Source: a virus
DNA length: 30,904 nucleotides
Direction: 5' to 3' (one strand)
IMG/VR virus record: IMGVR_UViG_3300005531_000024
Location: 1-30,904 of that record
The notes beneath the pieces were generated by a model. The model made no database searches, was not told the DNA's origin, and saw nothing but the letters and a program-made list of their open reading frames with translations. Positions within the stretch are counted from its first letter, which is position 1, and each line of letters starts with the position of its first letter. Position numbers and translations under genes: made by a program. Below, piece after piece: positions 2,003-29,884 of this stretch.

Positions 2003-2749
2003 ATGATAGCCGCGCCAACCCGTAACCCTTCAGAGAAGCTCTGGAGATACTACAAACAAAGAACGGTCTCCCAGCAGCAGGATGCGCAGTTGCGGAACGA
2101 GGTGGCGCTTGACCACATGAATCTGGTGCGGGAAATTGCGCATCGAATGAAGAACCGCTGTACTGAGAGCTACGAAGATTTAGAGCAGATTGGCTTTTGT
2201 GGGGCGCTCCGAGCAATCGAGCGATTTGACCCCACCAAAGGCGTGGCCTTTAGCTCCTTTGCCGTCCCCTACATTCGCGGCGAAATCCTTCATTTTCTAC
2301 GGGACCACGGGACAGGCATTAAAATCCCCCGGCGCTGGCGTGAACTGCATGCCAATGCAAACGTAGTCGAACGGGCCTGGGCCGAGCGCCATCATGGCCG
2401 TATCCCTGACGATCAGATGGTTGCCGATTTGATGGGAGTCGAGGTCAAGAAATTGCGCGTGGTGCGTGAGGCGATCGGCAACCAGCAGGCTATTTCGTTA
2501 GACCACAAACCGTTAGAAATTGCAGACCCTTCAACTTATGCAGACCAGCAAGAATCAAGTGCACGCTTAGATTCAGCATGGAGCCAATTGCGGCAACGAG
2601 TGGATCGGTTATCTCCGGTTGAGCGATCACTGATTCAGGGCATCTACTTCCAGCGGCAAAGCCGCAAGGCCATTGCTCTCCAGTTGCAGATCGAGCCTGG
2701 GGCTGTAAAACAGACCTTGCAGAAGGCGCTGGTCGCATTAATCAGTTAG
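2003..2749 (+). CDS. Group 3 sigma-70 family sigma factor, SigF/SigB-like
   Basis: The 248-residue length suits sigma factors of the SigB/SigF/SigG type. Region 2 spans about residues 35-105 and contains YEDLEQIG (57-64), GALRAIERFDPTKGVAFSSFA and PYIRGEILHFLRDH. Region 3 follows (IKIPRRWRELHANA, about 107-165). Region 4 (about 193-245) keeps LSPVERSLIQGIYF but has a divergent recognition helix (SRKAIALQLQIEPGAVKQTLQ), suggesting unusual -35 recognition. No anti-sigma or anti-anti-sigma gene is adjacent. It is a single transcription unit: a long upstream region with inverted repeats and a strong terminator at 2788. In Synechocystis the group 3 factor SigF controls pilin expression, which matters because this window also encodes a pilin. 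A role in phage late transcription is inferred. Confidence 0.92.
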   Translation: MIAAPTRNPSEKLWRYYKQRTVSQQQDAQLRNEVALDHMNLVREIAHRMKNRCTESYEDLEQIGFCGALRAIERFDPTKGVAFSSFAVPYIRGEILHFLRDHGTGIKIPRRWRELHANANVVERAWAERHHGRIPDDQMVADLMGVEVKKLRVVREAIGNQQAISLDHKPLEIADPSTYADQQESSARLDSAWSQLRQRVDRLSPVERSLIQGIYFQRQSRKAIALQLQIEPGAVKQTLQKALVALIS

Positions 2750-2810: not shown

Positions 2811-2821
2811 GCGTGCCTGCG

Positions 2822-2830
2822 TGCGGGAAT
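2822..2830 (+). promoter_or_regulatory. TGCGGGAAT box before the 2858 gene
   Basis: TGCGGGAAT begins exactly 36 nt before the ATG at 2858. The same 8-mer TGCGGGAA begins exactly 36 nt before the ATGs at 25087 and 29393. It sits right after the sigma-gene terminator, where the next operon needs a promoter. It resembles the GGGTAT-type -10 element of SigB-class sigma factors; that assignment is inference. Confidence 0.4.
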
Positions 2831-2857
2831 CCTGGAGAGTTATCAATAGGAATCACC

Positions 2858-3157
2858 ATGTCTGAACCAGGCTCTAGTCCACAAGATTCCCCTCCACACT
2901 GTCCAATCGATTGCCCCAATCGTGCAAAGGCAAATCGCATCCGTATTTTTGGACAACCCATTGATCCGGTTGAGATCCTGGTCCATTTTGCTGTTTTGAC
3001 GGTTTTGTTGGTGCCAGCTTCTCGTCGGGCCAACAGCGAGAATTTTACCTGGCAGGAAGGAGCTGGCTGGTTTGGCGTCATTGCCCTGGCGGCTGCAGTT
3101 GTACGGCTCGCTCCAACAGATCGCATCAATGCCTATAAACAGCTATTTCCGAAATAG
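2858..3157 (+). CDS. Small membrane protein, unknown function
   Basis: Starting at the ATG at 2858, with AGGAA seven bases upstream, the product has 99 residues. The N-terminal 30 residues are Ser/Pro rich with two Cys (PPHCPIDCPNRAK). Two hydrophobic segments follow, roughly VEILVHFAVLTVLLVPA and GWFGVIALAAAVVRLAP, separated by a polar loop, and then a short basic tail. The two-segment hairpin could be a holin, but no lysis gene is next to it, so I only call it a membrane protein. It starts an apparent operon with the genes at 3167 and 3904. Confidence 0.6.
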   Translation: MSEPGSSPQDSPPHCPIDCPNRAKANRIRIFGQPIDPVEILVHFAVLTVLLVPASRRANSENFTWQEGAGWFGVIALAAAVVRLAPTDRINAYKQLFPK

Positions 3158-4592: not shown

Positions 4593-4613
4593 AAAGTTCT
4601 AACAGTGGACGTT

Positions 4614-4644
4614 CCCAACTGGGGACAAATTGTCCCCAGTTGGG
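4614..4644. promoter_or_regulatory. 31-bp perfect palindrome upstream of parA
   Basis: The arm CCCAACTGGGGACAA (4614-4628), a single central A and the exact reverse complement (4630-4644) form a perfect palindrome. It lies between two iteron clusters in the parA upstream region. A 13-bp part, TTGTCCCCAGTTG, also occurs at 6310-6322 inside the HU gene. A ParB-type or regulator site is likely; it could also form a cruciform. Confidence 0.7.
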
Positions 4645-4680
4645 CTTGTTATCCTCATTCATGGCGACTTCTAGTCCTAG

Positions 4681-4713
4681 CTGCTTGAATGCTTGAATGC
4701 TTGCATTCAAGCA
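4681..4713. repeat. Second iteron cluster with inverted half
   Basis: TGCTTGAA units repeat here and the last turns around: TGCTTGAATG (4690-4699), four bases, then CATTCAAGCA (4704-4713), a perfect inverted repeat. It lies about 60 bp before the parA ATG, suiting operator or centromere function. Confidence 0.7.
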
Positions 4714-4775
4714 ACTTTGAATATAAGATCACAACACTGCAAACTTACATGCATTCATCAGTGCAAGGATGCAAT

Positions 4776-5591
4776 ATGCCAAACAACCAAGCAACGATCG
4801 CGCTGTCGCTGTCGTTGAGCGGAGGACAGGGCAAGACTCTGACCGCCTATATGATTGGATTGAAAGTGTCTAAGCTCGGTATACCAACCCTACTAATCGA
4901 CGGCGATCCTCAACGGAATTTGACCGACCTTCTGGGCGTTGAAGTGGAAAATCAGCCCACACTGCTAGAAGTCATCACAAACAAATGCTCGATTGAGGAC
5001 GCGATTTACCCTGTTCCCGATCGCGAAAATCTCTTTCTCGTCCCTTCGGATCGAGCCTTGGTCAATGCTCAGCATTACCTGGCTTCGTCAGCGAATTGCT
5101 CACGTGTATTGAAAAAACGCCTGGAGCCTGTCATGCAGGATTTTGGGCTGATTATGATTGACTCGCCACCGCAGAAGAATCACATCAATCTGACTGCGAT
5201 CGGTGCGGCAGATGTGGTCGTCATTCCAGCCGAGGCCGTTGCGAAAGGGCTGGGGTCATTAACCGAGACCTGGGCGCTGCTGGAAGAATGTCGTGACGGA
5301 GACGCGTTTGACGGTGAACTGATTGGCGTTCTGCCTTTCCGGGCACGAGTGGTTGGATTGCATCTTACAGGTGAGGCCTCGAGCACGCTTGCCAAGATGG
5401 AGAGCTTCATTGGCGCAACGATACTGCCCTCAGTAGTTGAGTCCGTTATCTATCAAAAGGCTCTCAATTATGGACAATTGCCTTCTGAGCTTGATGCCGA
5501 TAAAGCGGAGCTGGAAGCGCCTTTCGACGTGCTGTTAGAGCGTCTGAGCAAGTACGTACCAGCCATTCATAGTGAGGTAGTCCCTGTATGA
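4776..5591 (+). CDS. parA: ParA-family partition ATPase with variant Walker A
   Basis: The product has 271 residues from the ATG at 4776, which has AAGGA six bases upstream; the frame extends back to 4689, but that part is iteron sequence. It is a P-loop ATPase of the ParA/MinD/Soj family: Walker A SGGQGKT (15-21), Walker A' LLIDGDPQRN (39-48) and Walker B IMIDSPP (126-132). Such proteins form ATP-dependent patterns on the nucleoid that segregate plasmids. The signature lysine of the deviant Walker A (KGGxGKT) is replaced by Ser15. There is no N-terminal helix-turn-helix, so this is the short type Ib form, where the partner protein normally represses the operon. The downstream gene overlaps by 4 nt (ATGA), and iterons lie on both sides. 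Confidence 0.9.
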   Translation: MPNNQATIALSLSLSGGQGKTLTAYMIGLKVSKLGIPTLLIDGDPQRNLTDLLGVEVENQPTLLEVITNKCSIEDAIYPVPDRENLFLVPSDRALVNAQHYLASSANCSRVLKKRLEPVMQDFGLIMIDSPPQKNHINLTAIGAADVVVIPAEAVAKGLGSLTETWALLEECRDGDAFDGELIGVLPFRARVVGLHLTGEASSTLAKMESFIGATILPSVVESVIYQKALNYGQLPSELDADKAELEAPFDVLLERLSKYVPAIHSEVVPV

Positions 5592-6064
5592 AACCGACCG
5601 CAGCCGATCGCTTCATGAACCGCACTCGGCCAACTGTAGAAAAACGAGTTGACGAGGTGTCCGCCTCGCTACAATCAAATACAGGTAGTCCAGCCACAGA
5701 AGCTGATTCAACACCTGCTAAATCAATGCCTGTCAAAGAACGGTCAAACAACTTAACTGCCGCACCTGTAGACTTTGGCATCTCGGCACTGGAGCGAGAA
5801 CTGGCAGCCTTGCCAAAGGTCGTTAACTTTCAGTTGCGCGTTGAAGAGGGGTATAAACGCCAAATCCAGCAGGCGGCTGACCAGGCAGGCGTTACACCAG
5901 AAACACTTCTGCAAGGATTGTGGGCCGTGGCGCAAGATAGACCAGGGTTGCTGGAAGACGCGATCGCTGAAGCGAGAATCCACCATGCCCGACGCGCACG
6001 AGCACAAGAATTGAAACCTGCAATCACCCGGGCTAAGCGCACGGCTGAAAAGCTTGGTTTGTAG
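5588..6064 (+). CDS. ParB-like partner / centromere-binding protein
   Basis: This 158-residue protein overlaps the parA stop by 4 nt (ATGA), the classic position of the partition partner. Residues 1-70 are polar and probably disordered, as in ParB/ParG-type proteins whose N-terminus stimulates ParA. The segment VVNFQLRVEEGYKRQIQQAADQAGVTPETLLQGL (about 78-111) reads as a strand and two helices, a ribbon-helix-helix pattern. The tail is very basic (HHARRARAQELKPAITRAKRTAEKLG). It lacks the ParB N-terminal CTPase motifs. I infer that it binds the ATGCTTGA iterons on both sides and represses parA. Assignment rests on position and fold pattern, not on recognised homology. Confidence 0.65.
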   Translation: MKPTAADRFMNRTRPTVEKRVDEVSASLQSNTGSPATEADSTPAKSMPVKERSNNLTAAPVDFGISALERELAALPKVVNFQLRVEEGYKRQIQQAADQAGVTPETLLQGLWAVAQDRPGLLEDAIAEARIHHARRARAQELKPAITRAKRTAEKLGL

Positions 6065-6087
6065 TATCCAAGCATATAAGCAACCTT

Positions 6088-6137
6088 GCATTCAAGCATT
6101 CAAGCATTCAAGACTGTCTGAATACTTGAATGCTTGC
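6088..6137. repeat. Iterons and hairpin downstream of the partition genes
   Basis: Three exact copies of GCATTCAA (6088-6111) are followed by an 8-nt gap region and the inverted form TGAATACTTGAATGCTTGC (6119-6137). The halves can pair with about 17 bp and one mismatch. The units are the same iteron found upstream of parA, in the opposite orientation first. Lying between convergent genes, the hairpin may also limit read-through. Confidence 0.7.
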
Positions 6138-6140
6138 GGT

Positions 6141-6791: not shown

Positions 6792-6830
6792 GTTCCTACT
6801 TAATTTGCCCAGTTGCCTCTTTGTAGGAAC
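6792..6830. promoter_or_regulatory. Inverted repeat between divergent genes
   Basis: GTTCCTAC (6792-6799) and GTAGGAAC (6823-6830) form a perfect 8-bp inverted repeat with a 23-bp spacer, between the minus-strand gene at 6772 and the tape measure gene at 6860. The right arm carries the GTAGGAAY box also seen before the pilin gene. It may be a pair of outward promoter elements or a regulator site. Confidence 0.45.
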
Positions 6831-6859
6831 TCTACTCTGCACGGTTTTGGGCGTTCGGG

Positions 6860-9800
6860 ATGAGTGAAGTCGTTGGCAGTGCTGCGATTGAGTTGCAGTT
6901 AGATCGGAGTCGATTCAATCGTGATCTGCGCGATCTAGAGACGCTAGCGCTGAAGCCGATCGCGTTGGGGGTGAATCTCAACCTTCAGCAACTTGAACGC
7001 CAGCTTAAGGGAATCGCTCTTAATCCACTCACTGTAGGGCTACGTGCCGATACTAGCGCCCTAGAGAAACAGTTGCAGGCATTCAGTGCCACAGTTGTTG
7101 TCACCGCCAGACTGGATACGGCCGCAGCGGAACAGCAACTCAAACGCTTTGCAGGGGAACGGACTCTAAAGCTGTCGGCGCTGGTTGATGATAGCCAGCT
7201 CACGGCCCTCAACAAACATTTAGACCTCAAGCAAAGGCACTTTGCTCAAGTCAATGCCTATTTCAAAAGCTCCCCGCTAACACCGCGAGTTGATTTTCAG
7301 CAACTAGACGCCCTGGAGCGACGGCTGCAATCGTTCCAGACCAGTAGCTATAAAGTCACCATTGACGCACAGGTCAATGTCGCCGATCTGCGATCGCAGA
7401 TCGGCACCTTAGATGTGCCAGTGGTTCTCCGCTACGCCAATGCCCAACCCTTAGCAGCTCTGACCCAAAAGGTTGAGATTGACACGAAGGGCATTGAAGA
7501 CTCGCTGGGTAACAGCGTTGAACGAGCATTTCAGCGGGTTAAGGGTGGAGGATTACTCAGTGGATTAGGCAGTGTGCTGACGGCTCCGCTCAAGCTGGCA
7601 GGCGGCGCTTTGAGCACTACCTTGAGTGGTCTAACGCTAGGAGCCACCCAGGAAGTCTCGCGGAATTTGGGTAAGGGACTGTCTACCGCACTGGAAGGAG
7701 CACTGTCTAAGAGCGTTGGCAGTTCCGAACTGTTGGGGGAGAAGGTTGGGGGTGCAATCGGTTCTGCCGTAGTGCAGGAGTTTCAAACTCAAACTCAGAA
7801 CCTGGCTCAGGTACTGGAACAGCAGATCGACAAAATTCAGGACGGCAAACTACGAACCAAACTGCGAGAACAGCTTCAGTCAGTGGTTGAGCTGCCTGGG
7901 CAAGTTGGGCAAGCCGTTCAAGGGACGATCGGTCAAGACAATATCAATCGGGAAGGATTATTCCAGCGGGGGCAGCGTAGGCAGACGGAGCAAGCCAAAA
8001 CTCCTGTCTTGAGAGAGGAAGCAGTTACCGAATTTCGTGAATCGATCGCCACCAGCAAAAGTGTCGAAGCTCGCGCTACACAGAGCAAAGCCACATTAGA
8101 ACAGCAGATTGCCGTCAGACAGCGAGAGGTTGCAGAAGTAGGGCAACAATACGAGCAGCTCGCGATCGCCATTCAGAAAGCGGAGGCAGGCGGGGCTAAG
8201 GTTGCAGACATTGAACCATTAGCCGCTCAACTTAATGCCACAGCACAGGACTTTCAGCAGCTATCGCAGTCCCTCACTGCACTGGTACAGGCACGGGATA
8301 TTGCCACCAATGCCGTGCAAGAGGCAAAGCAGAAACGCCTTGCCGCACGACAACAACTCGATCAGGTTAGCCCGCAGCAACAGTCCAGGGCTTACGCCGA
8401 ACTGGCTCAAAGCACGCTTGGTGAAGCCTTTGATGCTGACAAACTGCCCAAATTAGTTGTTGACGAAGCGCGGCTTAAAGCCGTTGGCGCAGGGTCACTT
8501 TACGTCCCGGCTGAAAATGCCATCATCACGACCAACAAAATTTATGAGGCGGTCAAAAGCGCATCCCTAACGCAGCAACAGGCAGAGGTATTAGGGGAAG
8601 AGATTGCCCACGCTGAAGACTTCGATTTTGGGTCTTTCAAGGGCATCCAGGCAGCGAAAGATAGCCGTCCGATCGGGCGCAAAGTTACTCCTACAGCCGA
8701 AGAAGCAACCAGGTTTGCACCAGAGCTAGGGCGGTATGCACCCGAAAAACGAGAGGCAGAGCTAAACGCCAAAGTCAAGGGCGCAAGGGGGGCCGAAGAT
8801 TACCTGCAACGGCAGGATCGGCTGCAAGCAATCAGCGATGCCAGCGATGTGGCAGTTCAGGGTGAGAAGTTTACGGCTCCTGCACGCAAGGCGGTTTTCA
8901 AAGACGCACTGATCACCCTTAAACAAGAAGCCTCAAAGCGATTTGTGGAATCGGATGAGGCAATCGGCCAGTTCATCGACAGCTACAAAGAGTCGCTCAC
9001 CGAGATCGAATCAATTTCTCAAAGAGCGGCCCAATCGGCAGGCACGGCAACTCGCGAAGAAGTTGCTGCATTGCAGGAAGAAATGAACCAGGCGATCGGT
9101 TCCCTCAGCCACATCTTCGACCAGGTGCGAAGCGAGATTCAACGCGTGCAGGCGATCGCTCCTGAAGACGCACTCCAAGAGCGGCAGCAGGAACTTGCTG
9201 GACTGCTCAAGCAATTTAGTAAGAAAGAGCTAACGCCACTGGCGGAGCAATTTGGCGTCCAAGATGCTGGCTCTCTTAAGAAAAAGGAGCTAATTCAGCA
9301 GCTAACGACAACCGCTGACCCCAGGCAGTTAGAGCCAAAAGTTTTTGAACTGACTAGAACCAAAGCACAGCAGCAATTAGAGCGGCAGGAACAACGTGCG
9401 GCACTGGCTCAAACAGCCGGGGGCGTTGCCAGAGGAGCCGTTGAACTGGCAGGCGCGACAGCCAGCAAAGTCCAGGACATAGCAACCTCTGCACCTGTGC
9501 AAAATGCAGTACAGGCAGCAGGAACCGCAGGCAAGGCGCTATTGGCTGTTGGGAAGGTGGGTTATACCGTTGCGTCCGGCATGGAAGCCCTGGCGCTGGA
9601 TCTTGTTCCAGCCGGACGAGCAATCAAAGCGATCGCCCAACAAACGGTTGTGCCTGCCGCCTTGTTTGCGGGCGCAACGGCATTACTTCCCGGTGGTGCG
9701 AGTGTCGCAGCAGGGCTGAGTCATGTCGTTGGCGGAGTGGCATCGCCGTTACTCCATGCAGCCGGTGCAGGGGCAACCGACGCAGCAACGTCAGCGATCG

Positions 9801-12800
9801 CAGGTCATGTGCCTAATGCGTTTGGATTGGCGAACGGCATTACCACAGCGCTGACAGGGGCGATTGATAGTGCCGTTAACGCGGCCTCAGCCGGAGTGGC
9901 TCAGGCTGGTGCGGCCCTGCTGGGTGGCAAAGTCATTCAAACGGCTGCGGGTCGCACATTGGGTGGCGCAGCGCAAGCGGTTAACAATTTAGCAGCACTT
10001 CCTCCAACCCAGGCAAAAGCACTTCCTCCAGCACCGGCTAACACACCTGAGAGCGCCATTACCGCGTTGCCGCCGTCGCCTGCATCAGCTCAAAGCCCTC
10101 AAGTTGAAGTCGTATCGAGTCCCAGCGGCAAAGAACAGCGGTTTGAAGAACTCAATAGCCAGTATTCCGCCGCTGGTTTGCGCGAGATTGCCAAGCGCGT
10201 TGGTATTACCAGTTCACGGGCGAGGAGCCTGAAGAAAGAAGACCTGGCGCGCGAGTTAGCGTTTACTGACTTTGGCGTGTCGATCGACAAGGTATTAGCT
10301 GAAGTTGGTGACAGTGCGAAACTCAAAGCGTTTCAAGATGGGGCTAAAAGCGCGGCTGTGCCAACATTGCCAGCCTCAGCGCTCACGGCGATTCAAAAGT
10401 CGAATGACAAGATCAAGCAGCTTTACAAACAGTTCCAGGCGGCGCAGGGACAGGAACGCGTTGCGATCGCTCAAGCACTAGCAACGGCTTCGGATCAACA
10501 GGTTGCCGCAATTGAAGACGCATTCAAGCAATACCAGATTGAAGGCAGGACTGCCCAACAGCTCTCAGGTTTTCGGACACAGGCGATTCAAAAGTCGGAA
10601 GCACCCAGGGCAGAAGCACGTGACGTGGCACGCCAACAAATTCAGCAGACCCAACGTCAGGGCAGCACTTCACGAAACTTTCAAACCGTTAACGCTACAG
10701 TCGTCGATGTTTCCGCAGGCGATGACCTGAATGCAGCCAACTTGCTGGCATCGCTGCGTGAAGGTGGGCAAGCGGTCAACCGCGAACTGAGTGCTGCGAT
10801 CGAGCGATTTAATCAGGCACAACACAGCCTCGCCGAAACTATCGGACGCGAGGTTGCTCGCTTTGCTGAAATTGAACCAGAGGCAACGTTGCCGGCCACA
10901 CTGCAAAAAGCCGCGAACACTCCCAAAGGGCGAGATTTGCTGGTCAATACGGCAGGCTTTGCGGCATCGGTAGCAGGCAACCACTTTGGTGGGGCAGTTG
11001 GTGGAGCCGCAGGCGATTTGATTGGGGCGATCACGGCACGGCATGTCCTTTCAGGAGGACAGCACGGGCAGGGGGATGAGTTGTTCGGCGACCTGGCTGG
11101 ATTTGCGATCGGGAACGCTTCAGCCGCAGCATTGGGTGCTATTCCAGGGTTGGGCGGGGTGCCGCTCAAAGGAGCAGCAGTTGCACTGGCAGCCGTTCCT
11201 CAATTGAGCAAATTGCGGCAACGCATCCAGGGCCGGTTGGGAGAGGACGATGAAGCGAAGGCAAGCGGCGAAGATTTAGAGTCGGCCAATCTGGTTGGCG
11301 GTGCAACTGGGCTAAAACGCACTCTTACCAGCAAATCTCGACAGTTGCTTTCGCAGTTGGAGAAGCAACTTGGAGACACGATTGACAATCTAGCCCTGGC
11401 GCTCTCCAGCGATAAAGACTACGCCGGACATGCAGGCAAACAGGAGATTCGGGCACTCAATCAGCTCAACCAAACCGTTGAACGACTGCTAGAAGAACGT
11501 GGGGAGATCATCAACGAAACGTTTGATGCGGAGATGACTCGCGCCAATCAGGAGCTGCTGGAGATCGGGCAACGTATTGCCGCTAAGACCGCTGCTCGAC
11601 CTGACTTTGGGCTACTGGCAGACCGGGCGATTAATGACGGCACCCAGGCAAAGTCGCAGCAAGTCATTGGCGAAAACCAGCAAGATCTGCGAGCAAACAA
11701 ACGTCGCGCCTTTGAGTTAGAGCGCCAAACCGGGGAAGCGGCTGATCCAGGCTTAACACGCATTGAAGACCCGATCGCCGGTGATGACTTCAAGGGTGTG
11801 TTTAGCACCTTACGAAATGTCTTGAAAGGTGTTCAGGCTGATATTCGCGCCGCTGTTGCAAAGGATGCTGAAGCGCTGGCTGTTGAAAGCAAGAGCCTGT
11901 TGAACGATATCCGTACCGGCCAGGCGGTTGCAAAAGGATCGGGCGACAGAACCCAGGAAACGCGGCTACGAAAAGCAGGCGATCGCACTGAACGAGCCAT
12001 TGCTGGTTCGGAAGCCATTCTGGCAAAACCTGCTGCACAAGTGACCAGCAAAGATATTTCGGCACTGCAAGGGTTCAGCAAGGAGTTGCGGAGTGTCTAT
12101 GCACTGCTCGATCGTCCGGCACCTACTAATCCCGGTGGTTTAGCAACCCTATCTAACCTTTTAGAGAAAGCAAAAGGGGCTACCGCTGGATTTTTGGCTG
12201 GATTTGTGGGGCTGCAATTAGTGCAGTCGATCGGCTTCCAGGTTATTGGTTCAATCCAGCAGCTTTTCCAGGGGCTATCCGCCGATGCAATCAACGCATC
12301 CATCAAGTTGGACAACCTCAAAACAGCGCTCGATTTTTCTGTGGGGGGTGCTAGCCAGGGCACTCAGAGTCTGGAGTTTGTTCGCAAGACAGTGGCGGAC
12401 TTGGGGACGCCATTAGAATCATCTATTGAAGGTTTTAGCCAACTCTCGGCGGCAACACGGGGCACAGCCGCAGCGGGCAAAACGACCAAAGATGTCTTTT
12501 TAGGGATTGAGCAAGCTTCCACTGTGTTGGGGCTATCCGCTGAACAGACAGGTGGTTCCTTGTCAGCGCTGACCCAAATTGCGTCCAAAGGCTCCGTCCA
12601 GGCTGAGGAGCTACGGGGGCAATTAGGTGAACGCATTCCCGGAGCATTAGGCATTGCAGCACGAGCAATGGGGGTCACCGAGGCCCAGTTGAACAAGATG
12701 CTCGAAACGGGCTCTTTGCTGGCAGATGATTTTCTACCCCGATTCGGAAAGCAGCTACAAGCCGAATTTGGTGACGCAGCCAAAACGGCTGGCGACAATG

Positions 12801-15800
12801 CACAGAGCGCGATTTTCAGATTTCAAAACGCTTACCTAACCCTCCAGCAAACTGTTGGTAAGGAGTTGCAGCCAGGGTCAGTGGTTGGATTCAAAATCCT
12901 CACATCGGTGCTGCAAGGAGTGACAGCGATCGCGCCTGAGATCATTGCAGGGCTAACGGCGATCGCCCTCACCATTGGTGTCCAAACGGCACCCGCACTA
13001 TTTAAATTGATTGGTGATTTAATTCTCACCAAAGCAGCTACTGGCACTGCGATTGGAGGATTGCAATCGTTCTTTCAAACGCTCAACACCTCGAAAGCCG
13101 TCATTGGTGCTGTGGGCATTTTTGCGCTGATTGAATATTTCAGATTATTGTCCGAAACCATTAACACCGAGTTGGTGAAGTCGTTTGATGACTTAGCCGA
13201 TTCTGCCAAACGGGCGGCTGACAACTCAAAAGAGGTGAAACTTCCCGGACAACCAGAAAAACCGGACAACTCGAAGCAGGAGGCAAAAGAAGATGCCGAA
13301 AAGCCCGCGCCGTTAGCAGGACCATTAGACGTTTTGACCCGCGGCAATATTGATTTCAGCGATCCAAATCATCCCAAGCTTGTTGGCAGTAAAACGACCT
13401 TCCGCAACTTTGGCGATGTGGAGCGTGATCGCGTCGGTGGTGACATCGATAAATCAGTCAGTGAAACAGGTCAACTCCTATCTAAAGGTCGTGCTCGTCT
13501 CACAACCCTGGACACTAAAACCGGAGAAGGGGCTGATTTACAGGCGATTGATCAACAGCTTCAGAATGCTGAACAGCAGCGTAAGAGTCTGCAAGCCCAA
13601 GCGGAGCAAGACTATACCCGCAAAGGAAAGACCATTCCGGCGGCGCTTCAACAACAGCTTCAGGATGCCAACACTAACATTCAGAGCCTTGTGGACAAGC
13701 GCGGTGACGCAGCGAAGCCATTTACTGACGACCTGAACTCAGCTAATAAACTGATCGACGCTTACAAGTCAAAGTTGAAAGAGCTGGATGACCCCAAAAA
13801 TGAAGGGCATTTTGGCAATAAAGCTCAAACGGAGGAACGGCGTAAGCAGCTCCAGCAATCGCTCAAAGACGTCACCGACTTTAAGAATCAGGCTGAGGAA
13901 AAATTGGGGTCACTGAAGGTCGATCCCATTTTGGGTATGACCGACGGCTTCAGAAATTTGGCAGCAGCGATCGAGAGTGCCGAACGTGCAACGAAACTTT
14001 TCGTCAGTCAACAGAAAGATTTCATTCTCAAGGGTCAACTCAAAACGTTTGGTACCGATGAGGACGCGGCCCGCAGCGCCGCACTCAGCAATGCAATTTC
14101 CGACCGTCAGGGTATCCAACAAAATTTGGACAGTACTGATAAGGCATTGAAAGATGGCGGGACATTGCTTGATCGACCTGAAAACGAAGCCGCGTTGAGG
14201 GGGTTTGGCGTCAGTAAAGATAATTCGATTGAAGATATTAAAAAAGAGCTAGAAGCCACACCCCAAGACGATTCTGGAAAGGCCAAACGCACCTTGCTCC
14301 AGCAATTGTTGAACTTCAAGGAGTTGCAACAGAAGCGCGGTGATTTGCAGGTCAATTTGGACGAAGCTGATTTGAAGGTGCAGGATCAGGTTCAAACAAA
14401 TACACTGGCTGTGCTCGATCGCGATGCAACGAAGCGCGACCAGAAGCTCAAGCAGGATGACGATGCCCGTGCTGTTCCAGTGCGTCAGGCCAGCGCTGAC
14501 CTGGCACGAGACAAGGCCAATAACAAATTTTTCAGCGAGTCAGATGCCGCAGTAGCAGAAGCGGACATTGGCATTAAGACTGCTCAAAATCAAGCTACTT
14601 CAATCGATCAGAAGACCGACAACACGCAGCAGTCCTTGGAGGAGTTAAATGCCAAGAAAGACCAGCTCAGCGCTGAAGAGTTTAACAAGCGCCAACGTGA
14701 GTTGACGACACAGTTGGCAGACCTGCGCGTTGAAAAAGCTAACGCGGCGGCGACGGTGGAGGAGGCACTGGCAAAGAAGGTGGAAGCGACCAACCGTAGA
14801 ATCATTGAAGGGTTGGAGTTAGCCAATGCAAAAGCCGCCGCCGCTATTCAACTATCAGAAACTAACCAATCGACTGCGGTTAAGCGAAAATTCCTGGCAG
14901 CAGGGCTAACCGACGATGCCCAAAAGCAAGCTGATCTGGAACAAACCGGAGTAGATGAAAGAGCCACCCAGCAGCGTTCTCAGCTATTGCAAAAGGAGAT
15001 TGTTGACTATAAGCGAGCCGCCGCTGAAAAACGAATTTCTGGTAAAGAGCTAACGCAAAAATTGCTGGAGTTTAACCAGCAGTTAGCAGAGAGCAATGGC
15101 AAACTTGTAGATCTCCAAATCCAGCGCCAGAAACAGCTTCAGGACATTTACAACCGCGAAATTGATAAGCAAGTCAATGCCCAAAATCGCGCTGACAATG
15201 TGGCCATTCGTGGCTACGAGCGCCAGAAGGCAGCGATCGACCGTATTAACCAATCACTTGAAATCACTCGCAAATTAACGCAGAGCCGGGGTGATTTGCA
15301 GCAGGCGGTCGCTGCTTACAACCAGACAATCGCGCAAGGTGCGGCGGACAGTGCATCGAAAATCCTGGATCTCTTCAACAAATCGACCCAGGAACAGGAC
15401 CCAAATAAACAGGAAGGTTATCGAAAGATTTTACGTGCCCAGGGCTTTCAACCTTCTGGCGACGATGATACCGATCGGGAACGGTTACTTGACCAAAAGG
15501 AGGCGGCTGAAAAGAACCTTGCCGCCATTAAAGAAAGAGCGCTGCAAACCGAATATGCCATCAAACAACAGCTTCTAGAATTGGATCTCAAGCGCGATCG
15601 CTTGCAGGCAGAGCAGGCATATCGAGAGGCTCAAATTGCGGAGTTGAACGCGAAAAAGGATTTCACCAAGAGCACAGGAGAACTCAAGAAAGCCATTCAG
15701 AATGGCGATCCTGAAAAAATTGCTGAAGCGAAAGACAACCTGGATTCTTCTCTTCAAGCTTATGACTTAGCCAAGCAAAACACTGCTGGAGCGCAGGAAG

Positions 15801-16330
15801 GGGTCGCTGCAATCGGTGAGCTGGAGGCGAATGCCAGAGCTAAATTCGACGTCGAGCGTGACACAGCCTTTGCTCAAACTGCCCAGGAGCAACAAAACCT
15901 CACCGTCAGTCAAGCTACTGAACGAGTTGAAGCAGGGTTAGACCCAGACAAGGTGCTGAACGGTGGTGGCGTGCAGACTAACTATGGTGTGCAGTCGGGC
16001 AACTATGCTCGTCGTGGAGGATACTACAACGACGATCGGGGGTTACGCGATACCCGATCGTCGTTCTCACCACAACCCAGTACGCCCGCTCCTGATCGCA
16101 GCAGCGGTGTGGTCGAAGCATCAGGTTCGACGGGCGATCGACTGGGTTCTTTCTTTGATAGCCTGACCTCGGCGGTAACTCAACGCCTAGACATGGTGAT
16201 TGAACTAATGCGGCAGGACATGGGCAACCCCAAATCGCTGACCTTCCACGCGACGGATCCGGTTGAAAGCTATGCCGACTACCAGAATCGGCAAACAGGC
16301 AATGCATTACGGTCACAGCCCAGTTATTAG
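6860..16330 (+). CDS. Giant tail tape measure protein
   Basis: At 3156 residues this is by far the largest gene. The N-terminus (1-220) has degenerate repeats of about 24 residues alternating beta and D-x-x-x-L-x-x-L helix segments. Residues about 515-655 hold a zincin-like segment with EEIAHAEDF. Two short Rho_N/SAP-like motifs follow (about 782-820 and 1104-1136), around Ala/Gly-rich hydrophobic regions (about 888-1033 and 1363-1400). The conserved tape measure domain lies at about 1800-1975 (QASTVLGLSAEQTGGSL, GQLGERIPGALGIAARAMGV), then hydrophobic helices (about 2007-2097) and nearly 900 residues of charged coiled coil. Such proteins set tail length and are ejected with the DNA; at about 0.15 nm per residue the tail could approach 470 nm. 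It lies far upstream of the portal and chaperone genes, which is unusual. No lysozyme motif was seen. Confidence 0.93.
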   Translation: MSEVVGSAAIELQLDRSRFNRDLRDLETLALKPIALGVNLNLQQLERQLKGIALNPLTVGLRADTSALEKQLQAFSATVVVTARLDTAAAEQQLKRFAGERTLKLSALVDDSQLTALNKHLDLKQRHFAQVNAYFKSSPLTPRVDFQQLDALERRLQSFQTSSYKVTIDAQVNVADLRSQIGTLDVPVVLRYANAQPLAALTQKVEIDTKGIEDSLGNSVERAFQRVKGGGLLSGLGSVLTAPLKLAGGALSTTLSGLTLGATQEVSRNLGKGLSTALEGALSKSVGSSELLGEKVGGAIGSAVVQEFQTQTQNLAQVLEQQIDKIQDGKLRTKLREQLQSVVELPGQVGQAVQGTIGQDNINREGLFQRGQRRQTEQAKTPVLREEAVTEFRESIATSKSVEARATQSKATLEQQIAVRQREVAEVGQQYEQLAIAIQKAEAGGAKVADIEPLAAQLNATAQDFQQLSQSLTALVQARDIATNAVQEAKQKRLAARQQLDQVSPQQQSRAYAELAQSTLGEAFDADKLPKLVVDEARLKAVGAGSLYVPAENAIITTNKIYEAVKSASLTQQQAEVLGEEIAHAEDFDFGSFKGIQAAKDSRPIGRKVTPTAEEATRFAPELGRYAPEKREAELNAKVKGARGAEDYLQRQDRLQAISDASDVAVQGEKFTAPARKAVFKDALITLKQEASKRFVESDEAIGQFIDSYKESLTEIESISQRAAQSAGTATREEVAALQEEMNQAIGSLSHIFDQVRSEIQRVQAIAPEDALQERQQELAGLLKQFSKKELTPLAEQFGVQDAGSLKKKELIQQLTTTADPRQLEPKVFELTRTKAQQQLERQEQRAALAQTAGGVARGAVELAGATASKVQDIATSAPVQNAVQAAGTAGKALLAVGKVGYTVASGMEALALDLVPAGRAIKAIAQQTVVPAALFAGATALLPGGASVAAGLSHVVGGVASPLLHAAGAGATDAATSAIAGHVPNAFGLANGITTALTGAIDSAVNAASAGVAQAGAALLGGKVIQTAAGRTLGGAAQAVNNLAALPPTQAKALPPAPANTPESAITALPPSPASAQSPQVEVVSSPSGKEQRFEELNSQYSAAGLREIAKRVGITSSRARSLKKEDLARELAFTDFGVSIDKVLAEVGDSAKLKAFQDGAKSAAVPTLPASALTAIQKSNDKIKQLYKQFQAAQGQERVAIAQALATASDQQVAAIEDAFKQYQIEGRTAQQLSGFRTQAIQKSEAPRAEARDVARQQIQQTQRQGSTSRNFQTVNATVVDVSAGDDLNAANLLASLREGGQAVNRELSAAIERFNQAQHSLAETIGREVARFAEIEPEATLPATLQKAANTPKGRDLLVNTAGFAASVAGNHFGGAVGGAAGDLIGAITARHVLSGGQHGQGDELFGDLAGFAIGNASAAALGAIPGLGGVPLKGAAVALAAVPQLSKLRQRIQGRLGEDDEAKASGEDLESANLVGGATGLKRTLTSKSRQLLSQLEKQLGDTIDNLALALSSDKDYAGHAGKQEIRALNQLNQTVERLLEERGEIINETFDAEMTRANQELLEIGQRIAAKTAARPDFGLLADRAINDGTQAKSQQVIGENQQDLRANKRRAFELERQTGEAADPGLTRIEDPIAGDDFKGVFSTLRNVLKGVQADIRAAVAKDAEALAVESKSLLNDIRTGQAVAKGSGDRTQETRLRKAGDRTERAIAGSEAILAKPAAQVTSKDISALQGFSKELRSVYALLDRPAPTNPGGLATLSNLLEKAKGATAGFLAGFVGLQLVQSIGFQVIGSIQQLFQGLSADAINASIKLDNLKTALDFSVGGASQGTQSLEFVRKTVADLGTPLESSIEGFSQLSAATRGTAAAGKTTKDVFLGIEQASTVLGLSAEQTGGSLSALTQIASKGSVQAEELRGQLGERIPGALGIAARAMGVTEAQLNKMLETGSLLADDFLPRFGKQLQAEFGDAAKTAGDNAQSAIFRFQNAYLTLQQTVGKELQPGSVVGFKILTSVLQGVTAIAPEIIAGLTAIALTIGVQTAPALFKLIGDLILTKAATGTAIGGLQSFFQTLNTSKAVIGAVGIFALIEYFRLLSETINTELVKSFDDLADSAKRAADNSKEVKLPGQPEKPDNSKQEAKEDAEKPAPLAGPLDVLTRGNIDFSDPNHPKLVGSKTTFRNFGDVERDRVGGDIDKSVSETGQLLSKGRARLTTLDTKTGEGADLQAIDQQLQNAEQQRKSLQAQAEQDYTRKGKTIPAALQQQLQDANTNIQSLVDKRGDAAKPFTDDLNSANKLIDAYKSKLKELDDPKNEGHFGNKAQTEERRKQLQQSLKDVTDFKNQAEEKLGSLKVDPILGMTDGFRNLAAAIESAERATKLFVSQQKDFILKGQLKTFGTDEDAARSAALSNAISDRQGIQQNLDSTDKALKDGGTLLDRPENEAALRGFGVSKDNSIEDIKKELEATPQDDSGKAKRTLLQQLLNFKELQQKRGDLQVNLDEADLKVQDQVQTNTLAVLDRDATKRDQKLKQDDDARAVPVRQASADLARDKANNKFFSESDAAVAEADIGIKTAQNQATSIDQKTDNTQQSLEELNAKKDQLSAEEFNKRQRELTTQLADLRVEKANAAATVEEALAKKVEATNRRIIEGLELANAKAAAAIQLSETNQSTAVKRKFLAAGLTDDAQKQADLEQTGVDERATQQRSQLLQKEIVDYKRAAAEKRISGKELTQKLLEFNQQLAESNGKLVDLQIQRQKQLQDIYNREIDKQVNAQNRADNVAIRGYERQKAAIDRINQSLEITRKLTQSRGDLQQAVAAYNQTIAQGAADSASKILDLFNKSTQEQDPNKQEGYRKILRAQGFQPSGDDDTDRERLLDQKEAAEKNLAAIKERALQTEYAIKQQLLELDLKRDRLQAEQAYREAQIAELNAKKDFTKSTGELKKAIQNGDPEKIAEAKDNLDSSLQAYDLAKQNTAGAQEGVAAIGELEANARAKFDVERDTAFAQTAQEQQNLTVSQATERVEAGLDPDKVLNGGGVQTNYGVQSGNYARRGGYYNDDRGLRDTRSSFSPQPSTPAPDRSSGVVEASGSTGDRLGSFFDSLTSAVTQRLDMVIELMRQDMGNPKSLTFHATDPVESYADYQNRQTGNALRSQPSY

Positions 16331-19185: not shown

Positions 19186-19268
19186 GGACAAGCCTAGTAA
19201 GTAGTAACCACGAAATTAGATTAAGTTTAGCTGCTTTCAGCGATCGCTTCCAGTGGGAACCCCAGGGC

Positions 19269-20771
19269 ATGAATCCCTCTTCCCCCGCACTCACCAAAGA
19301 TCCATCGCTGCCTTCTTTCCTGCACCCCACGTATCTCGACGCGGCAAACGAACTGCAAATCGTTTGGGATGTGTGGCAGGAGCTAAAGGGCTGCAAAGGC
19401 GATTACCTCTCTAAAGAAGAGGAAGAACCACCGCTTGCGTACAAAAACCGTCTTGCCCGGACACAGTTCGACTCGCGCTTTAAGCCAGCGCTGAAGGGTC
19501 ACGCCGGACTGTTATCTGAGTTTGTTCTATCTGACGATGTGGCACCGTCGATCGCCGCTGCACGCGACGACATCGACCTGCAAGGCAGCAGCATTGAATC
19601 ATTTCTGACAGACCAGGATGAGACAGTACTGCGGGACGGCGGGATGGGCATTCTGGTGGAGCATCCGCCACAACCCACCGATGAAAATGGCAACCCACTG
19701 ATCCAAAGTGCGGCTGACGAGCAAAACTATGCGCTACGACCGTACCTCGTTGCCGTCGATCGACGCAACATCCTTAACTGGAGCATTATCTATGAGCAAG
19801 GTAAGCCGATCATTCAACGCTTAACAATTCAGGAAAGCCGCCTGGTAGCAGTAGATGATTATGGCGTCGAAACCAAAACTTACTATCGGGTGCTAACCCC
19901 TGGCAGATTTGATGTTTATGAACTGGTACAGATCCAGGGCGGCAAATATCAGAAGGTTTTAGTACCGGAGCTATCCGGCGCAACAGGTTTAGAAGTTGTG
20001 CCGTTTGTCTGGTACTCGGTTAGCGATAGCAAATGGTTTGAAAGTCAGCCTCCGTTTCTCAATCTGGCTCAGTTGAATATTGAGCATTATCAGAAACGAT
20101 CGAGCCTCAATGAGGTGATTCATAAATGCAATCTACCTGTGCCCGTGCGTAAAGGATTGATCAAAAACCTCGCTGATCTGCTGAAAGGCGTGGTCAAGCT
20201 GATCATCGGTCCCAACTCTGTTGTAGACATCCCCGCAGACGGGGACTTTTTCTTTGCGGAGCCAACGGGCAATGCCATTAATGCCACCCAAACCGATATT
20301 GAAAAGCTGGAACGCTCCATGGATCGGATGTCCCTAGCCTTCTTGACTGGCGGGGAAGCGGCAAAAACGGCAACGGAAGTGGTGATGGACACTGCCCAAA
20401 CCCAGTGCAGCCTGAAAAACATGGCACGTCGGAAGGAATCCACTGTGCAGCGACTTTTTGCGCTCTGGGTGCAGTACACCGGAGAAGACCAGGGCGGCAC
20501 GATCACTGTCAACGAGTCTATTCTGCAAACGCCTGCGAGTCCCCAGGAAGTACAGACCATTTTGGATGCGATGGGGGTCAAGATTAGCAACCAGCTCGGG
20601 TTACAAATGCTGCAAGAGCGGAAATGGCTGCCACCAGACACGGATATCAAGGAAGAGTTACGGCAAATTGGTGATCTTGAGGCCCAGAACCAGACCGTGT
20701 TGCCTACACCCGACGCGATCGCAGCCGAAGCAGCACGACATGCCGTTCAAACGTTGCCCGTTGCCGCGTAG
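19269..20771 (+). CDS. Portal protein, DUF4055-type
   Basis: This 500-residue protein matches my recall of DUF4055 phage portal proteins: a start like "P-x-Y-x-A-x-x-x-W-x-x-x-x-x-x-x-x-G" (LHPTYLDAANELQIVWDVWQELKGCKGDYL), YKNRLARTQFDSRFKPALKGHAGLL, a DGGMGILVEHP strand (about residues 120-130), and a stem/wing section with LNLAQLNIEHYQKRSSLNEVIH. The dodecameric portal forms the DNA entry channel at one capsid vertex and binds terminase and connector proteins. The C-terminus ends in a long helix (AIAAEAARHAVQTLP). It opens the virion module. A large terminase gene would normally precede it, but here the neighbours upstream are small minus-strand genes. Confidence 0.85.
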   Translation: MNPSSPALTKDPSLPSFLHPTYLDAANELQIVWDVWQELKGCKGDYLSKEEEEPPLAYKNRLARTQFDSRFKPALKGHAGLLSEFVLSDDVAPSIAAARDDIDLQGSSIESFLTDQDETVLRDGGMGILVEHPPQPTDENGNPLIQSAADEQNYALRPYLVAVDRRNILNWSIIYEQGKPIIQRLTIQESRLVAVDDYGVETKTYYRVLTPGRFDVYELVQIQGGKYQKVLVPELSGATGLEVVPFVWYSVSDSKWFESQPPFLNLAQLNIEHYQKRSSLNEVIHKCNLPVPVRKGLIKNLADLLKGVVKLIIGPNSVVDIPADGDFFFAEPTGNAINATQTDIEKLERSMDRMSLAFLTGGEAAKTATEVVMDTAQTQCSLKNMARRKESTVQRLFALWVQYTGEDQGGTITVNESILQTPASPQEVQTILDAMGVKISNQLGLQMLQERKWLPPDTDIKEELRQIGDLEAQNQTVLPTPDAIAAEAARHAVQTLPVAA

Positions 20772-21211: not shown

Positions 21212-21239
21212 ACCCACCGCGCAGCCCGGTGGGTTTTTT
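21212..21239 (+). terminator. Terminator between portal unit and pilin gene
   Basis: ACCCACCG (21212-21219) pairs perfectly with CGGTGGGT around the loop CGCAGCC and is followed by six T. It should end most portal transcripts, so the pilin gene at 21274 needs its own promoter or read-through. Confidence 0.88.
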
Positions 21240-21273
21240 GTAGGAATGCTGAGGCAGTTGCTACTACTGCTCC
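21240..21273 (+). promoter_or_regulatory. Pilin leader with GTAGGAAT box and small hairpin
   Basis: GTAGGAAT (21240-21247) begins 34 nt before the pilin ATG, directly after a terminator. GCAGT and ACTGC downstream can pair as a small hairpin. The layout resembles the leaders of the genes at 25087 and 29393, so it is a candidate promoter for the pilin. Confidence 0.4.
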
Positions 21274-21666
21274 ATGAAAGGCTTTTCGCTGATTGAATTG
21301 CTTGTCGTTGTCATCATCATTGGGTTGCTGTCGGCGATCGCGCTCCCACTGTGGCTCACTCAGGCAAACAAAGCTAAAACTGCTGAGGCATATACCACTC
21401 TCAGAGCAGCAAACCAGGCCCAGCTACTTTACTTTTTGCAGCACAACGCCTTTGCCACGAATGCTAACGATCTACAAGCAGGCATTGCGCTAGAAAGCCC
21501 CAATTATGTTTATGCGGTCACGGGCAGCGTAACCGCTGGTGATACGGAGGCGCATCCCAAAGGCTGGCTGGTGCCAGGGTTCCGAGGTTGCGTCTTCGCA
21601 CAGCCAACCGATAAACCGGCGATTGAGGCTGGCGGTTTAGGCCAAAGTCCACCCCCATGCGAGTGA
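21274..21666 (+). CDS. Type IV pilin-like protein in the head module
   Basis: This 130-residue protein has a textbook class III signal: MKG followed by FSLIELLVVVIIIGLLSAIALP, with prepilin peptidase cleavage expected after Gly3 and the conserved Glu at mature position 5. The hydrophobic helix continues into QANKAKTAEAYTTLRAANQAQLLYFLQHNAF. The C-terminal part (NYVYAVTGSV, GFRGCVFAQP, PPPCE) resembles cyanobacterial type IV pilin-like G/H proteins and has two Cys that could form the usual pilin disulfide. The product should be processed by the host prepilin peptidase and enter the pilus or a pseudopilus. It lies between a strong terminator and the MuF-like gene, only 3 bases from the latter, so it is co-transcribed with phage genes. 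Pilins are not known to me as virion components. Confidence 0.93.
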   Translation: MKGFSLIELLVVVIIIGLLSAIALPLWLTQANKAKTAEAYTTLRAANQAQLLYFLQHNAFATNANDLQAGIALESPNYVYAVTGSVTAGDTEAHPKGWLVPGFRGCVFAQPTDKPAIEAGGLGQSPPPCE

Positions 21667-25086: not shown

Positions 25087-25545
25087 ATGACTGAACCCAA
25101 ACAATTGCACCACCAGGACATCGCACTTGAACAGCAGACACAGCAGAAGTGCTCACCACCAGAACTCACGCTCGAACAGCAGATGCAGCAGAAATGCCGA
25201 GAATGGCAGCAACGGCTGAGGCTGGCTGATTGGGATGTAACTGTAAAAGTTGTGCCTGCCATGGATATGAGCAGTACGCAAGCGCAGGGCTGTATTCACT
25301 GGCGCATAACCGAGAAAACGGCAGACATTAAGCTGGTTACACCGGAAGATGCTGTTAAGCAGAACCCAATGCGACCCTACAACCTTGAAGAGACGCTGAT
25401 CCATGAGTTGCTGCATCTGCACATGGCACCGTTTGAACCAGACTCAAGTGAACAGACTGAGTGTATGGCAATGGAGTGGACGATTAACGCGATCGCGGGT
25501 GCCTTGCTCAAACTAGCAAACTCACAGGAGTCGGCAAATGTTTAA
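25087..25545 (+). CDS. Zincin-like metallopeptidase-family protein
   Basis: The 152-residue product carries LIHELLHLHMAPF with the HExxH zinc motif at residues 106-110 and a downstream acidic helix (ECMAMEWTINAIAGALLKL, candidate third ligand Glu130), a pattern of small phage zincin-like proteins. It could cut a capsid or host protein, but small phage zincins have unclear roles. The N-terminal 40 residues contain a duplicated segment, LEQQTQQKC and LEQQMQQKC, encoded by a 27-bp imperfect direct repeat. The core begins near REWQQRLRLADWDVTVKVV. It has the 18-bp leader repeat upstream and an 8-nt overlap with the next gene. Confidence 0.75.
   Translation: MTEPKQLHHQDIALEQQTQQKCSPPELTLEQQMQQKCREWQQRLRLADWDVTVKVVPAMDMSSTQAQGCIHWRITEKTADIKLVTPEDAVKQNPMRPYNLEETLIHELLHLHMAPFEPDSSEQTECMAMEWTINAIAGALLKLANSQESANV
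25126..25197 (+). repeat. Internal 27-bp direct repeat in the zincin gene
   Basis: Positions 25126-25152 and 25171-25197 match at 23 of 27 bases and encode LEQQTQQKC and LEQQMQQKC. The 45-bp period keeps the frame, suggesting a recent in-frame duplication in the N-terminal extension. Confidence 0.75.
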
Positions 25546-29356: not shown

Positions 29357-29374
29357 TGCGGGAACACCAGGGCA
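29357..29374 (+). promoter_or_regulatory. 18-bp leader repeat, copy 2
   Basis: TGCGGGAACACCAGGGCA, identical to 25051-25068 and at the same distance from the next ATG (36 nt from the first base). Here GGGCAG and CTGCCC form a perfect 6-bp hairpin between the box and the ATG at 29393. Confidence 0.6.
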
Positions 29375-29392: not shown

Positions 29393-29884
29393 ATGCCGAA
29401 TGCCGTTGCCCTTTCCATCGACACTTTCGCTGTTTCACTACAAGAGTTTGTGCTCAACGGTTATGAGCGCACGGTGATTGCGCCGGGTGGTGAAGTAGAG
29501 TATTCGCTTAATGGCACTCCAACTGTTGATGGGCAACTCTATGAGCCGAAGTACGTCTGGACGCTAGCAGCGTTTCTCAGTGAAGCGGAATGGCGGCAAC
29601 TGTGGTTGATCTATCGGCGATCAGAGCGGAAGCGGGCACAAGATCAACCATTTAGCATCACTGTCGCGGATTACGTCGAAGCATACGTTGAAGACCAGGA
29701 TGGACGCAGCAGAGCATTAGCGCCTGATGGTGAGGTCGTTGCGTTAGACGGTGGTGGCATCGAATATCCAGCCCTCTTCCACGCTCGGATGTACGAGCCA
29801 CGCTGGGAGCATTCTAATAATCTGCTCTATCCATACATCGCCCGGTGCGTGCTGCGCGAGCTAGACCCGGTGCCAGCGTCATGA
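29393..29884 (+). CDS. Tail protein, upstream of the hub-like gene
   Basis: The 163-residue product is mixed beta/alpha: NAVALSIDTFAVSLQEFVLNGYERTVIAPGG, YVWTLAAFLSEAEWRQLWLIYRRSERKRAQ, FSITVADYVEAYVED, IEYPALFHARMYEPRWEHSNNLLYPYIARCVLREL. This resembles small distal-tail proteins that sit before the hub/fibre protein, but I cannot name the family. It has the conserved 18-bp leader upstream, and its stop overlaps the next ATG by 4 nt, tying it to the tail-tip protein. Confidence 0.65.
   Translation: MPNAVALSIDTFAVSLQEFVLNGYERTVIAPGGEVEYSLNGTPTVDGQLYEPKYVWTLAAFLSEAEWRQLWLIYRRSERKRAQDQPFSITVADYVEAYVEDQDGRSRALAPDGEVVALDGGGIEYPALFHARMYEPRWEHSNNLLYPYIARCVLRELDPVPAS

Follow-up and report, generated by a model that had tools for sequence, protein, structure and literature searches.

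A SigF-derived sigma factor of a temperate cyanobacterial phage and a candidate late-gene promoter box that accompanies it in related phages

In Synechocystis, the SigF promoter consists of TAGGC (-32) and GGTAA (-12), and SigF drives pilA1 (PMC2758279). Ma-LMM01 is reported to depend on the main sigma factor of its host (PMC5780444). Little is known about how temperate phages of filamentous cyanobacteria transcribe their late genes, and our literature search did not find a SigF-like factor described in cyanophages.

The stretch of DNA analysed here (the window; 30,904 nucleotides) lies within C32, a contig of 73,426 bases in the draft genome (6.96 Mb) of a cyanobacterium. By its gene content (tyrosine integrase, LexA/S24 repressor, primase-helicase, terminase, portal, scaffold, GP7-type capsid protein and tail genes, with a tape measure protein of 3156 aa), the entire contig reads as a temperate phage; phage genes are present at both of its ends, and no terminal repeat common to the two ends was found at the lengths tested. 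Elsewhere on C32, QueE-like, ParB-like and queuine tRNA-ribosyltransferase-like genes stand in a row (65305-68327 on the scale of the window, L020:2213-5235), which suggests 7-deazaguanine DNA modification. Repeated TTGAATGC / GCATTCAAG units flank ParA and a small partner gene (4689-6064) on either side (window 4600-4700 and 6065-6140) and are a possible partition site. The sigma gene and its surroundings are as follows:

1422-2002, + strand: region upstream of the sigma gene, 581 bases, without a late box (described below)
1829-1844: perfect inverted repeat GAGACA-GACT-TGTCTC (GAGACAGACTTGTCTC), 5' of the sigma gene
2003-2749, + strand: SigF-like group 3 sigma factor, ATG start, 248 aa, regions 2, 3 and 4, with a divergent region 4.2
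2787-2806, + strand: intrinsic terminator after the sigma gene
2813-3157, + strand: small protein gene 3' of the sigma gene, which it likewise follows in the relative L086 (58% identity)

The open reading frame at 2003-2749 matched Pfam Sigma70_r2 at 63.3 bits (cut-off 24) and Sigma70_r4_2 at 28.6 bits (cut-off 25.7), with a sub-threshold match to Sigma70_r3 (19.8 bits, cut-off 25.3). Group 3 sigma factors were taken to be proteins of about 220-270 aa with regions 2 and 4 and no region 1.1, and the window's factor falls within this group of alternative sigma70-family proteins. The AlphaFold2 model was confident (mean pLDDT 81) and showed the helices of region 2 and the helix-turn-helix of region 4 (helices 221-228 and 232-247) to be intact; the closest solved structure was Bacillus sigma F (1l0o). 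The domain matches and the model bear out the preliminary description, made from the window's letters alone, of a complete group 3 sigma factor; its proposal that the gene is transcribed as a single unit fits the 581-base gap on the 5' side and the terminator on the 3' side. The inverted repeat may serve the phage repressor as an operator. The top NCBIfam model was the cyanobacterial SigF family PRK07408 (194 bits, E 2.9e-57), with a score below the family cut-off of 261.

Peptide-pattern searches of viral and genome collections returned no close relatives of the sigma factor, for which family alignment was required; profile-style searches of cyanophages and prophages revealed a SigF-like factor in more than 10 other cyanophages. 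Virion genes are common to C32 and G393 (L086; nearly the whole structural module), G390 (L083), G004 (L051) and G227, and the other sigma-bearing phages have few genes in common with C32. In a 54-row tree, 16 of the 17 phage factors formed a single clade (91/99) next to SigF and separate from SigJ; when long branches were left out (28 rows), all 10 phage factors did so (100/100). Those of L083 and L086 were nearest to the window's factor (98/93 to 100/94). Chromosomal SigF-like genes occur in the genomes of the host's order, most of which also have a SigJ-like gene. The window's factor is neither: against SigF and SigJ from its own genome it shows 38% and 36% identity, respectively. Placement among chromosomal paralogues, which the preliminary description had named as the outcome that would overturn its proposal, was not observed: the window's factor lies in a separate, phage-only clade beside chromosomal SigF, so that the phage factors descend from cyanobacterial SigF as a single clade.

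Two candidates were removed from the comparison. The factor of IMG/VR L085 grouped with chromosomal SigF and was hence counted as host, and the Microcystis 'phage' MaAM05 (L169, MW495066.1), considered as the closest known phage factor, was dropped because ribosomal protein, trpS and ispD/ispH genes surround its fliA match, and it looks bacterial. Among the relatives, a 606-aa protein (L056:7501-9321), from a prophage whose tape measure gene is related, has SigF-like regions 2 and 4 fused to about 400 more residues with helix-turn-helix domains; in one branch a DUF3102 gene lies directly 3' of the sigma gene (L052:4494-5267, L053:8529-9299, L054:10648-11430), and the related phage contig G390 has a group II intron at L121:15497-16084.

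Region 2.3-2.4 of a sigma factor reads the -10 element of the promoter and region 4.2 reads the -35 element. The window's factor and host SigF are 70% identical in region 2.3-2.4 (91% among chromosomal SigF of the class, 69% among the phage factors) and 19% identical in region 4.2 (83% and 33%, respectively), which confirms the divergent region 4 noted previously; in L055, a 171-aa factor of the clade, the sequence stops before region 4. With region 2.3-2.4 conserved and region 4.2 not, the -10 reading should be SigF-like and common to the phages, and the -35 reading should vary by phage or be lost.

A motif search of the late-strand gaps revealed GGGAAC near start codons, and the motif was then followed in the other sigma-bearing phages, where TAGGAA is the commoner form and T[AG]GGAA[CT]TCT the common one. 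The box was accordingly defined as T[AG]GGAA[CT] (TRGGAAY) or GGGAAC, and the following sites lie in the window:

6824-6833, + strand: late box TAGGAACTCT, 36 nt 5' of the tape measure gene (6860-16330), which is boxed in five other phages
19254-19260, + strand: late box TGGGAAC, 15 nt 5' of the portal gene (19269-20771), with an equal short distance in two relatives
21241-21247, + strand: late box TAGGAAT, 33 nt 5' of the pilin start codon
25053-25059, + strand: late box CGGGAAC, 33-34 nt 5' of the gene at 25087-25545
29359-29365, + strand: late box CGGGAAC, 33-34 nt 5' of the gene at 29393-29884, which is boxed in three phages

The pooled sigma-bearing phages had 70 box sites versus 6.3 expected. 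C32 had 10 versus 0.7 (p 2e-9) and five relatives gave p-values of 3e-8 (G393), 1e-6 (G395 and G394), 1e-5 (G397) and 2e-5 (G398), single values that are optimistic because discovery and testing of the motif drew on overlapping data. Six cyanophages without a sigma region 2, all of other lineages, together with the host chromosome, had 4 sites versus 2.9 expected, and in the prophages with a related portal and no sigma factor, which are few, the box was found at 1 of 51 sites (about 0.9 expected). More weight falls on these controls, and on the box's conserved position 5' of the tape measure gene, than on the single p-values. Among orthologues of C32 genes, 28 of 91 late structural genes were boxed, as against 13 of 171 in the remainder (Fisher p 3e-6), foremost the tape measure gene (6 of 8 phages). 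The sigma gene itself was without a box in all 12 phages (0/12), so that autoregulation through the box was not seen.

The leader GGGAAC-NNCAGGGCA, followed by a hairpin before the start codon, occurs at window positions 19255, 25054 and 29360 and at 32297 and 35154 on the window's scale; the 7 Mb genome has no other exact copy, and all five are on C32. A candidate match to GTGGGAACTCCAGGGCA in viral contigs was rejected as one chance sequence in four overlapping contigs.

On sequence grounds, the factor probably serves late genes, as a sigma from a new phage branch of SigF, and comes with a candidate recognition box. Since the box is shared by most sigma-bearing phages of the clade and stands before virion genes, the protein probably switches host RNA polymerase to the late genes, including the pilin gene of this phage. 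Our best reading, to which we give a probability of about 0.6, is thus a late-gene sigma factor that derives from host SigF and has a promoter box of its own.

The leading alternative is that the box and hairpin form a post-transcriptional leader of late mRNAs, spread among the phages and acting in translation, stability or processing, while the sigma factor uses other, unseen promoters. The majority of sites lie 33-38 nt 5' of start codons, an almost fixed distance that is tighter than promoters need and so counts against the promoter reading; hairpins of unrelated sequence stand between box and ATG at many sites (mean z -1.2), and neither the pooled sites nor a de novo two-box search gave a conserved or reliable -35 element. 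The leaders matched no Rfam family. Against a leader, however, many boxed sites have no hairpin, and the portal box, 15 nt before the ATG in three phages, leaves no room for one. Four boxes, the pilin's among them, follow immediately on an intrinsic terminator, so that there is hardly space for a further promoter (terminators before boxes were not enriched overall: 4/70 versus 41/1036, p 0.5). The box also tracks the core sigma clade, boxed genes have a median same-strand gap of 102 nt versus 11 nt, and GGGAAC resembles the -10 element of the SigB/SigF family (GGGWAY). The likeness to that -10 element, the boxes abutting terminators, the gaps, the 15-nt portal distance and the conservation of region 2.4 but not of region 4.2 favour a promoter, and we place the promoter reading ahead of the RNA-leader reading by roughly two to one; the latter we regard as rather unlikely.

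The preliminary description had linked the sigma factor to a pilin in the same window and supposed a regulon that extends to pilus genes. Its features are:

21212-21234, + strand: intrinsic terminator just 5' of the pilin box
21274-21666, + strand: type IV pilin-like gene, 130 aa, between the portal and MuF-like genes

The gene is indeed in the window; it has the prepilin GFxxxE motif and hydrophobic helix of a type IV pilin, matches Pilin_GH (44.8 bits) and N_methyl (25.7 bits, over its cut-off) and resembles host pilins most in its first 90 residues (46-56%), but it is in a different transcription unit, 18.5 kb away from the sigma gene. A pilin signature was present in only 1 of 14 sigma-bearing viral records, and the portal/MuF-like slot of the relatives, in which the pilin is absent, holds a methylase in G004, other genes in G393 and nothing in G227; sigma factor and pilin are therefore unlinked across the phages. 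A second sigma-bearing prophage (G399/L092, equal to G039:C89) has a pilin-like gene elsewhere. The pilin gene is most readily explained as a moron, and the order of terminator (21212-21234), box (21241-21247) and ATG (21274) makes it most likely a late gene. During virion production the phage pilin may alter the pili, for example against superinfection.

A factor that mimics host SigF, steering the host's SigF regulon of pili and cell surface, is a second alternative, one that the SigF ancestry, the 70% identity in region 2.3-2.4, the pilin on the element and the control of pilA1 by SigF in Synechocystis (PMC2758279) all invite. A SigF-promoter-like block, part of which may be coding, lies 5' of sigF in the host's order, including the window's own genome. 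However, the TAGGC / GGTAA promoter of host SigF was not enriched in the element (11 sites versus 9.8 expected, none before the pilin or the sigma gene), the host pilin genes have no phage box within 250 nt upstream, region 4.2 is only 19% identical to that of host SigF, and sigma factor and pilin do not travel together, so that we consider mimicry very improbable. Of the regulon supposed earlier, then, the element's own pilin stands, boxed behind its terminator, and control of host pili is not supported; redirection of polymerase to the element's late genes is the part that gained support, with the box marking late structural genes in most phages of the clade. Least probable, by a little, is that another phage protein (an activator or polymerase-binding factor) reads the box and the sigma factor is a passenger or serves lysogeny: association with the sigma factor, which is what the counts establish, is not proof of recognition, and three sigma-bearing prophages (G330, G353 and G362) have no box, but these have very divergent factors, the most divergent of all, and the sigma factor is the shared transcription factor noted in gene comparisons of otherwise divergent phages.

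Under our preferred reading of a late-gene sigma factor with its own box, induction or infection would be followed by expression of the sigma gene as a unit of its own, and the factor would bind the host core RNA polymerase and direct it to late phage genes. Its recognition site would most likely be the T[AG]GGAA[CT] / GGGAAC box, probably as a -10-type element read by region 2.3-2.4, with the region 4 contact to the -35 seemingly lost or phage-specific; the pilin of C32 would have been brought under late control as a cargo gene. A bolder version, which we offer tentatively with the odds somewhat against it, is that a phage-only SigF branch cut the two-box promoter down to a single -10-type TRGGAAY, that the late regulon of most phages of the branch rests on this box in the manner of T4 gp55, and that in one phage a host-derived pilin joined the regulon, the cell surface changing during virion production.

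What is new here is a box shared by most phages of the sigma clade, and factor and candidate recognition box are named together and are testable in vitro. If confirmed, the box would be a late-gene marker for the annotation of cyanophages, and the pair would represent a host regulator turned viral switch and a promoter-sigma pair for cyanobacterial synthetic biology.

Among described systems, cyanobacterial SigF (Synechocystis Slr1564, PRK07408) is the best family match and the nearest chromosomal relative, with a nearly identical region 2.3-2.4, whereas the window's factor scores 194 rather than 261 bits, diverges in region 4.2 and belongs to an element in which use of TAGGC / GGTAA was not seen. 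SigJ is the sister type of SigF in each host genome, but the trees set it apart from the phage clade. The SigF/SigG-like sigma factors of Bacillus phages (PMC9429907) are likewise host group 3 factors carried by phages; they have been reported only in phages of spore-formers and are non-essential for lytic growth where tested, whereas here there is a cyanobacterial clade with a box at virion genes. T4 gp55, with its -10-only late promoters, offers a parallel as a phage-encoded factor for late genes with, apparently, a single promoter box, and L055 without region 4 recalls it further; the gp55 box, however, is TATAAATA as against TRGGAAY here, homology between the two is not shown, and no requirement for a clamp or gp33 is known for the factor described here.
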